Positions 20,088-21,782 of a stretch of DNA of 35,954 nt are shown here, piece after piece. The stretch comes from Thermoplasmata archaeon. Its GTDB lineage: Archaea; Thermoplasmatota; Thermoplasmata; UBA10834. Each line of letters begins with the position of its first letter. The first letter of the stretch is position 1. The DNA lies in NCBI GenBank assembly GCA_021789945.1, contig JAJYIS010000008.1:1-35954 (forward strand). Direction: 5' to 3'. The position numbers and the translations under genes were made by a program. The notes under the pieces are model-generated. The model saw nothing but the letters and a program-made list of their open reading frames with translations. It did not search any database and had not been told where the DNA came from.

Positions 20088-20975
20088 CTATTCGCCGACC
20101 TGGTCCCGGACCAGTCTCATCGCCTCCTTGAGCAGGTCCTTCTCGTTCAGGTGAGGGCCGCAGATCGCGGTTTCGACCTCCTTCAGGAGCTCCTCATGCT
20201 CCTTTCTGGAGATCCTCATCACCCTCCGCAGACCCTCAAGGATCTCCTCCTCCGGACCGGAGATGATCCTGTCCGCAAGCGCGACCTCGAGGACGGTCCT
20301 GTATATTCTCCTGAACTCCATGTGGTCCATGGCGAGCCTCTTGACGATCTCTAATTCGAGCGCCCTGTGCTGCTCTTCGGTGATTTTCAGGTGCTTGCGC
20401 AGCTCCTCGACGAGAAACCGTTCCGTCGCGGTCACCTTGCCATCGTTCCAGGCGGTCTGAAGAGCCCGCCTGTAGGTTTCGGTGTCCTCGTCCTCGCTCT
20501 CGACTGCCTCCCTGCGCTTTCGTTCCATGTCCTCCAGGTCGGACATGTCCAGAGACCCTCTGGATATCGCCTCGCAGACGATGTCGCACAGCTTTATGTG
20601 ATGGGAGGTGAGGTCGTCGATGTCCGCCACCTTCATCTCCGTGACCTTCCCGAGGTTGTGAACCGGCACGACACACTGCTCGACCTTTGCCCTCAGGTTC
20701 TTCGCAATTGAGAGCCCGCCCGGAGTGAGATAGTATCCGTTCATCCTCTGCCTCATGCCCTGGATGTGAGCCTTTCGCTCCTGGATGAGCCCGTCGCCGA
20801 GCAGGTCCTTGAGATACTGGGAGAGGTGTTTCCTCTGGATCCCAGTCCCGAGCGAGACGGACTCCTGGGTCAGCCCCGACGGGAGCTCGAACCTTTCGTC
20901 CATGTTGGTGAATTCTGAGAGGTATAGCAGGATGCGCTCCTTGCTCGTCAATGCTGTGAGCTCGTCGATTGGCAT
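20088..20975 (-). CDS. Winged-helix regulator with C-terminal TerB-like repeats
   Basis: A 295-residue protein. The N-terminal 95 residues are a winged helix (LTSKERILLYLSEF, LTQESVSLGTGIQRKHLSQYL, then a basic wing RMNGYYLTPGG), as in archaeal regulators with ligand or protein interaction domains. The rest is helical with two acidic EF-hand-like segments, DGKVTATERFLVEEL and ADRIISGPEEEILEG, the signature of TerB-like domains. So it likely links stress or metal sensing to DNA binding. Start ATG 20975, with a TATA box (ACAATATACC, 20999-21008) 28 bp upstream, leaderless. Ends with TAG. Confidence 0.75.
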   Translation of the reverse strand: MPIDELTALTSKERILLYLSEFTNMDERFELPSGLTQESVSLGTGIQRKHLSQYLKDLLGDGLIQERKAHIQGMRQRMNGYYLTPGGLSIAKNLRAKVEQCVVPVHNLGKVTEMKVADIDDLTSHHIKLCDIVCEAISRGSLDMSDLEDMERKRREAVESEDEDTETYRRALQTAWNDGKVTATERFLVEELRKHLKITEEQHRALELEIVKRLAMDHMEFRRIYRTVLEVALADRIISGPEEEILEGLRRVMRISRKEHEELLKEVETAICGPHLNEKDLLKEAMRLVRDQVGE

Positions 20976-21079: not shown

Positions 21080-21178
21080 ATGATCGACAAGAGGGCCGTG
21101 ATCTTCCTGTTCATTCTTCTCATAGGGATCGTCGTCGCGCTCGGAATAATCATCGCGCTCTCGGGACAGCACCTCTAG
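21080..21178 (+). CDS. Predicted 32-residue single-pass membrane peptide
   Basis: MIDKRAV followed by about 21 hydrophobic residues (Ile, Leu, Val, Phe) and a short SGQHL end: a plausible single-pass membrane microprotein with positive-inside N terminus. No clear ribosome binding site and no TATA box were seen, so expression is uncertain. It lies divergent to the winged-helix regulator, which could control it. Not recognised. Confidence 0.4.
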   Translation: MIDKRAVIFLFILLIGIVVALGIIIALSGQHL

Positions 21179-21376: not shown

Positions 21377-21407
21377 CATTCATTATTTATATATAAATAT
21401 GTGAATG
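21377..21407. promoter_or_regulatory. 31-bp near-perfect palindrome centred on a TATA box
   Basis: CATTCA (21377-21382) and TGAATG (21402-21407) flank the perfect palindrome ATTTATATATAAAT (21385-21398). The core is a symmetric TATA box that could fire in both directions; the outer arms look like a repressor half-site pair. Forward transcription would start near 21418, at the beginning of the structured leader. Confidence 0.5.
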
Positions 21408-21417
21408 AACTGATTGT

Positions 21418-21599
21418 GTAGCGGGAAAACCCTAATATATCGCTCAATGCTCAGTAGATACTCGATAGGTATGCACGCACACTTCCGCAAAGGAAAGGAT
21501 TGTTCGCCCGCGCATAGCGGGAACGCGCGTGCATTCCACAAGTGATGGGCTGGCTAGGCGCGAAAGCGGGACCAGCCGGAATTCACTTTTGAGGAGGTG
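21418..21599 (+). ncRNA. Candidate structured leader RNA (riboswitch-like), undescribed
   Basis: Between the palindromic promoter and a small gene lie at least five helices. AGCG/CGCT (21420-21443) around GGG-AAAA-CCC. ATGCACGC with GCGTGCAT (21471-21478 with 21527-21534, 8 bp), extended by GG/CC across a mismatch, enclosing TTCC-GCAAA-GGAA (21483-21495) and CCCGC-GCATA-GCGGG (21507-21521). Then AAGTGA/TCACTT (21540-21545 with 21583-21588) enclosing GGCTGG/CCAGCC (21548-21553 with 21572-21577) capped by CGC-GAAA-GCG, a GNRA tetraloop. The Shine-Dalgarno GAGGAGGTG (21591-21599) follows 2 nt after the last helix, and CACTTCC (21480-21486) could pair with GGAGGTG by six Watson-Crick pairs and one G-U. 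It matches none of the riboswitch classes I can recall (TPP, fluoride, cobalamin). Existence as RNA is inferred. Confidence 0.5.
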
Positions 21600-21605
21600 C
21601 AAGAG

Positions 21606-21728
21606 ATGGCAATGAGCATAATCTGGAATACCTACAGGTCGATACACCTGGACAAGGTCAACGGACGCACTCCGAGGGCCGGCAGGAGGGTATCGAGGAA
21701 CCATGTCTCCAGCAAGAGAAAGCTATGA
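21606..21728 (+). CDS. 40-residue basic protein behind a structured leader
   Basis: MAMSIIWNTYRSIHLD then a tail of mostly Arg, Lys, Ser and Asn (ten basic residues, one Asp) ending KRKL. The ribosome binding site GAGGAGGTG is perfect and 6 nt from the ATG, one of the strongest in the window, so it is probably translated. The first third is weakly amphipathic; the tail suggests RNA or ribosome binding. Not recognised from any family. It ends 54 bp from the convergent transporter gene. Expression is probably set by the leader at 21418-21599. Confidence 0.6.
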   Translation: MAMSIIWNTYRSIHLDKVNGRTPRAGRRVSRNHVSSKRKL

Positions 21729-21782
21729 GACGGGCAGCAAACCCCTTAATTGAGTCTTTATCACATTCTCTGGCAGCCCGCT

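Follow-up and report, generated by a model that had tools for sequence, protein, structure and literature searches.

A family-restricted structured mRNA leader linked to a basic microprotein in uncultured Thermoplasmatota

A stretch of 35,954 nt, here called the window, from contig JAJYIS010000008.1 (C30) of a 2.0-Mb, 88%-complete metagenome-assembled genome (MAG; Candidatus Thermoplasmatota, uncultured archaeon), contains on its forward strand a leader of ca. 188 nt (21418-21605) directly before a 40-codon open reading frame (ORF). The question raised by this locus is whether the leader forms a genuine RNA structure and, if so, what this structure does for the small protein encoded behind it. 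A reading of the sequence by itself had proposed a translational riboswitch or protein-binding autoregulatory leader, consisting of several helices, a perfect Shine-Dalgarno (SD) sequence and a CACTTCC segment (21480-21486) that could pair with the latter. The features as they stand after comparison with relatives are collected in the table.

Features of the leader-ORF unit and its left neighbour (positions in the window)
Feature	Positions	Strand	Basis or remark
TATA box TTTATATAT	21386-21394	+	Pattern match; starts at -32 from the first conserved RNA base
5'-terminal conserved element GTAGCGGGAAAACCCTAATATATC	21418-21441	+	Predicted transcript start; consensus GTANC..NAAAN..T..ATA
P1 5' strand	21471-21478	+	Pairs with 21527-21534; extension 21468-21469 with 21536-21537; pair counts and swap test
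P1 3' strand	21527-21534	+	As for P1 5' strand
P2 5' strand TTCCGC	21483-21488	+	Pairs with 21517-21522; swap test
P2 3' strand GCGGGA	21517-21522	+	As for P2 5' strand
Terminal loop of P1/P2 arm	21489-21516	+	Core GGATT..TTC.CCC...GAT strongly conserved (17-sequence alignment)
P4 5' strand AAGTGA	21540-21545	+	Pairs with 21583-21588; pair counts and swap test
P4 3' strand TCACTT	21583-21588	+	Ends 3 nt before the SD
P3 stem GGCTGG/CCAGCC	21548-21577 (strands 21548-21553 and 21572-21577)	+	Pair counts
Shine-Dalgarno AGGAGGTG	21592-21599	+	GGAGGT invariant, 17/17
40-aa basic microprotein ORF MAMSIIWNTYRSIHLDKVNGRTPRAGRRVSRNHVSSKRKL	21606-21728	+	Translation; profile match in 17 family genomes
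AAACCCCTT, probable transcript end	21739-21747	+	Recurs after the ORF in nearly all relatives
Winged-helix-like neighbour, weak ENT/TerB-like C-terminus	20088-20975	-	Pfam scan; adjacent to the leader in most relatives

A DNA search of relatives returned four alignable homologues from the same genus, each with leader, SD and ORF. The covariance model R1, trained on these four homologues and the window, gives one strong match per genome in 17 of the 19 genomes of the family, so that the leader and ORF occur as a single copy in all three genera; the two genomes with no match are incomplete MAGs. R1, which comes from one genus, gives 20-48 bits for the ten copies in genera 2 and 3. In the reverse direction, a model made from genus 3 only (R3) scores 39 bits (E about 6e-7) on the leader of the window and matches nothing outside the family at E<=0.01 among 380 genomes. 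A sequence-only model of the 17 leaders (R2) retrieves the same 17 copies from 400 genomes of the class, all further matches being at chance level. Independently of the leader, a protein profile finds the same 17 loci (E 1e-15 to 1e-22), always right after the leader, which in the genomes searched never stands before any other gene. Helices and small ORF are kept together in homologues. Within the host genome a DNA search for the leader returned only the locus itself; structural mimicry of an rRNA binding site, a mark of ribosomal-protein leaders, lies outside the reach of such a search. Weak matches outside the family (E 0.003-0.05), together with locus L100, were set aside, their numbers fitting chance and the layout being wrong in those inspected. 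In the sister family, locus L030 (G019:C12:7616-7823) is a possible distant copy of the leader, with GTAGACGGAAAAGGTTATTATATCCCC at its 5' end and differing neighbours; it scores 21 bits with R1, 15.9 with R2 and has no match with R3, and its layout is correct, including a 41-aa basic ORF, but this ORF has no match to the protein profile.

Of the 17 family leaders, 14 have their best TATA-like octamer starting at -32 or -30/-31 (at -35 in L024, ambiguous in L016 and L025), and because of this constant spacing in most copies transcription is expected to start at the conserved GUANC. Nine columns of the 5' element are invariant in the 17-sequence alignment (G2, T3, A4, C6, A12, T17, A21, T22 and A23). 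The leader shows an identity of 0.61-0.68 and the ORF one of 0.62-0.66, whereas the flanks reach 0.39-0.47; conservation thus sets in where the transcript is predicted to start and does not extend beyond the ORF. The motif AAACCCCTT, found twice in the window where 0.3 occurrences are expected, probably acts as a terminator. An AAACCC motif lies immediately 3' of the stop codon in genera 1 and 2. In genus 3 (loci L017, L018, L019, L021, L023, L024 and L025) ca. 75 nt with extra hairpins, e.g., CCCTTTGACAAAGGG and GTCCGGAGTCAGCTCCG, are placed between the stop codon and AAACCC. The ORF appears to be the sole gene of its transcript.

Taken by itself, the single-sequence fold of the leader is unremarkable (z -1.4 to -1.7, with 13-14 of 200 shuffles folding as well), and evidence for structure comes from comparison. 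Among the seven sequences of genus 1, seven pairs show two-sided changes against 2.4 in shuffles (reached in 0 of 500), with at most four in slid controls. Genus 3 shows eight such pairs against 5.0 in shuffles (16 of 500), and 12 cells changed on both sides against 6.2 (0 of 500). An RNAalifold consensus over all 17 leaders is empty, probably because MAFFT leaves exchanged helices unaligned; genus-wise pair counts and a swap test stand in its place. The latter, used because helices have been exchanged wholesale between genera, compares the duplex energy of the two strands of each species with that of strands taken from other species. For P1 the own strands reach -17.7 kcal/mol, compared with -15.7 within the same genus and -11.3 in other genera (p<=5e-5 overall; p=4.5e-4 within genera), and the corresponding P4 values are -8.9, -8.1 and -6.0 (p=1.5e-4 overall; 0.05 within genera). 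P2 gives 0.0036 overall and 0.10 within genera, and the short Hb hairpin 0.023 and 0.009, while the values for control pairings are 0.95 and 0.48. A helix formed within the 5' element was rejected, since its own strands pair no better than those swapped within the genus.

The fold is thus real for P1 and P4, and that of P2 is probable from the sequence comparison. In genus 1, 92.9% of P4 cells are paired, and in the other genera this helix is swapped for UAGG/CCUA-type and AAGC/GCUU helices; P2 takes the forms CCUGC/GCAGG, GUCCGC/GCGGAC, GCCC/GGGC and AGACCC/GGGUCU. The 8-bp closing helix of the first description (P1) and its 6-bp helix (P4) around a GAAA-capped stem (P3) are both borne out, the first by covariation in relatives as is the second, together with the SD that follows. 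The GAAA loop itself (21562-21565) is not conserved in sequence. The two inner hairpins described within P1 (TTCC/GGAA and CCCGC/GCGGG) proved specific to the window, relatives supporting the single helix P2 instead, for which covariation is weaker. Chance folding, or conservation at the level of DNA as promoter or operator with no functional RNA structure, would agree with the modest stability of the single sequence. It is contradicted by the way in which the strands of P1, P4 and P2 compensate each other between genera, measured against null controls, and by pair counts above both shuffles and slides, which make this explanation hardly tenable.

Whether the structure switches access to the SD is a separate matter. 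Across leaders the SD is not less accessible than with shuffled upstream sequence (mean unpaired 0.36 vs 0.29), and in the ensemble of the window it is mostly free (0.74 unpaired), so that no switch is evident. General sequestration of the SD was accordingly rejected as no better than in shuffles. The proposed CACTTCC partner is absent at that place in relatives and is not among the main SD partners in the ensemble of the window; of the earlier proposal, the conserved structure and the link to a small basic protein stand, and this specific switch falls as not conserved. An alternative hairpin that takes up the SD, UCACUUUUGAGGAGGUG, is clearly seen in genus 1 and in part in genus 3, while genus 2 has a different form of it. 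In genus 1 the P4 3' strand has two possible partners, its own 5' strand and the SD (UCACUU...AGGUGG), which resembles a switch. Two further candidates were discarded, namely pairing of the loop UUCUUCCCCC with the SD, which is not conserved in genus 1, and, for genus 3, a long-range duplex between the 5' element and the SD, which is strong in energy but hardly better with own (-15.2) than with swapped strands (-14.4). Control of translation is likely and a switch unproven, since SD access is no lower than in shuffles and the alternative pairings differ between genera.

The ORF spans 40 codons in most members and 41 or 43 in three, has no internal indels and starts with ATG or GTG. The protein is basic throughout (pI 10.6-12), the copy in the window having a pI of 12.0 and a net charge of about +8.7, in keeping with the 40-residue basic protein first described, and the consensus reads roughly MRPSRxWxTxRxxQLEKxLxxVPRxxRxxLRxYxAGRR. 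Differences at codon positions 1, 2 and 3 number 292/323/348 in genus 1 and 217/289/358 in genus 3, and pairwise dN/dS is mostly 0.3-0.9, with a few values above 1. That the ORF is coding is supported mainly by the conservation of its frame, its length and the SD and by the profile matches; its residues are under weak purifying selection. The copy in the window is only 20-43% identical to the others. AlphaFold2 predicts two helices at low confidence (pLDDT 62). No relative of the microprotein was found in Pfam, NCBIfam, PHROGs, the PDB or phages. The Pfam and NCBIfam searches gave single-member chance matches only (best E 0.014), one member touching uL22 at E 0.032. With respect to described ribosomal proteins, the downstream gene matches none in Pfam or NCBIfam and has no credible PDB match.

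Searches against known RNAs were equally empty. None of 4227 Rfam 15 families matches the leader at gathering score or at E<=5, which agrees with the initial impression that no described class has this architecture; one unrelated sub-threshold match lies elsewhere in L006. RNase P RNA (RF00373) was excluded as the identity of the leader, being located elsewhere in the genome (G000:C127), and it occurs elsewhere, above the cut-off, in 14 of the 19 family genomes. No paper on riboswitches in Thermoplasmatota was found in the open-access literature searched. The closest parallels are the archaeal leaders of S15, eL15 and L4 (PMC7247131), likewise lineage-restricted structured 5' leaders in one copy before a constant gene for a small basic protein, but the microprotein matches no ribosomal protein (Pfam, NCBIfam, PDB) and no r-leader of Rfam matches. 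The k-turn leader of L7Ae (PMC5539422, PMC6298567) is likewise a case of archaeal translational control through an RNA structure close to the beginning of the regulated mRNA, as proposed here. The microprotein, however, is different from L7Ae, and inspection of the P2 junction by eye showed no kink-turn consensus (a 3-nt bulge with tandem G.A pairs). With translational riboswitches the leader has in common covarying helices and conserved loop bases that end just before the SD, and differs in the lack of metabolic target genes, the single copy and the absence of a supported anti-SD switch. The orphan small-protein mRNAs of Methanosarcina mazei (PMC11456600) likewise carry a tiny ORF, translated according to Ribo-seq there and predicted here, whereas in the present case a long conserved structured leader accompanies it. 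The leader is a new RNA family of a known kind, the structured mRNA leader.

The reading preferred here, at a probability of roughly 0.6, is a new structured mRNA leader that is specific to this lineage and serves a single basic microprotein, whose translation it most likely controls, possibly in an autogenous manner. It builds on homologous loci with a conserved structure, present once per genome and always linked to the same gene, on the promoter position and on the end of conservation at the ORF; regulation by the leader, and what it may sense, we infer. A standalone transcription unit would yield an mRNA of about 330 nt, whose first ca. 188 nt would form the 5' GUANC...AUAUA element, a long P1/P2 arm carrying the conserved UUC-CCC-GAU loop, and a P4/P3 arm stopping a few nucleotides before the SD. 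The leader would control translation initiation of the 40-codon basic protein, with the P4/P3 arm setting the state of its ribosome-binding site, while recognition would fall to the P1/P2 arm together with the 5' element. The partner recognised would most likely be the protein itself, and less likely a small ligand or another protein. Judged from sequence, the protein may plausibly bind the leader of its mRNA, given that each genome has a single copy, that the gene behind it is always the same and that the product of this gene is very basic.

Against this, a metabolite- or ion-sensing riboswitch with the microprotein gene as sole target would explain the conserved covarying structure that the leader does have, and covarying helices next to an SD, combined with conserved unpaired bases in the loop and at the 5' end, are typical of aptamers. 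Yet a single copy per genome with one target gene is no metabolic regulon, no riboswitch of Rfam matches even at E up to 5, and alternative SD pairing is not demonstrated, SD access being not below that of shuffles; the explanation is improbable. A general metabolite riboswitch is also made less likely by the lack of a second copy before any other gene, and autogenous control is favoured over metabolite sensing because a single copy with a single target follows the 'only gene' principle as applied to r-leaders (PMC7247131). The main alternative, a dual-function RNA, would have the ca. 190-nt RNA act in trans, with the 40-aa protein from the same transcript as its partner in a ribonucleoprotein (RNP). 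The about equal conservation of RNA and protein speaks for it, and it would suit the constant 5' end and length of the RNA, its own promoter and end, the one copy per genome, the strongly basic protein and the genus 3 transcript, which seems to run ca. 75 nt past the stop codon with further hairpins. The perfect SD and start codon always within a few nucleotides of the RNA suit a leader instead, and the RNA is unlike RNase P RNA, so that a trans-acting role is rated rather unlikely. Only tentatively may the unit be described in broader terms as a family-specific RNA-microprotein module, in which the own-promoter RNA would both encode and bind the 40-aa protein, autoregulated or as a trans-acting RNP, unlike described archaeal RNAs.

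The dedicated leader matters as few cis-regulatory RNAs are known in archaea, where four r-leader motifs were counted as a significant increase (PMC7247131), and it adds an RNA family with solid homologues and covariation. The linked microprotein could easily escape gene callers, and a defined RNA and a defined protein are now available for binding tests. Should the protein bind the leader, the pair would form a minimal autoregulatory RNP; should it not, the leader would be an orphan sensor in an uncultured archaeal lineage.

The unit is flanked on the left by the winged-helix-like gene and, in genera 1 and 2, on the right by a convergent MFS gene, both identified by Pfam scan. The wider surroundings, named from sequence reading by the author, include a GAF-type histidine kinase, an SDR dehydrogenase, and ADP-forming acetyl-CoA synthetase-like, CBS-domain and Hdr-like proteins. 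Neighbour gene order is kept across genera, and the conserved neighbours indicate no pathway. With its leader in single copy and its neighbours conserved, the unit lacks the marks of a mobile or viral element, and a viral or plasmid-like origin was rejected, no phage, PHROGs or viral-contig relative having been found. A second microprotein ORF of 32 aa with one transmembrane segment, MIDKRAVIFLFILLIGIVVALGIIIALSGQHL, lies at 21080-21178 (+), and most members of genera 1-3 have 29-30-aa versions of it (MIDRRALWFLF...LSG) at a distance of ca. 310-350 nt on the upstream side of the leader. Counted over both strands, the window has five cases of GGAGGTG with a start codon 4-9 nt behind it, against 1.1 expected, and strong SDs may for this reason be in use in the lineage.
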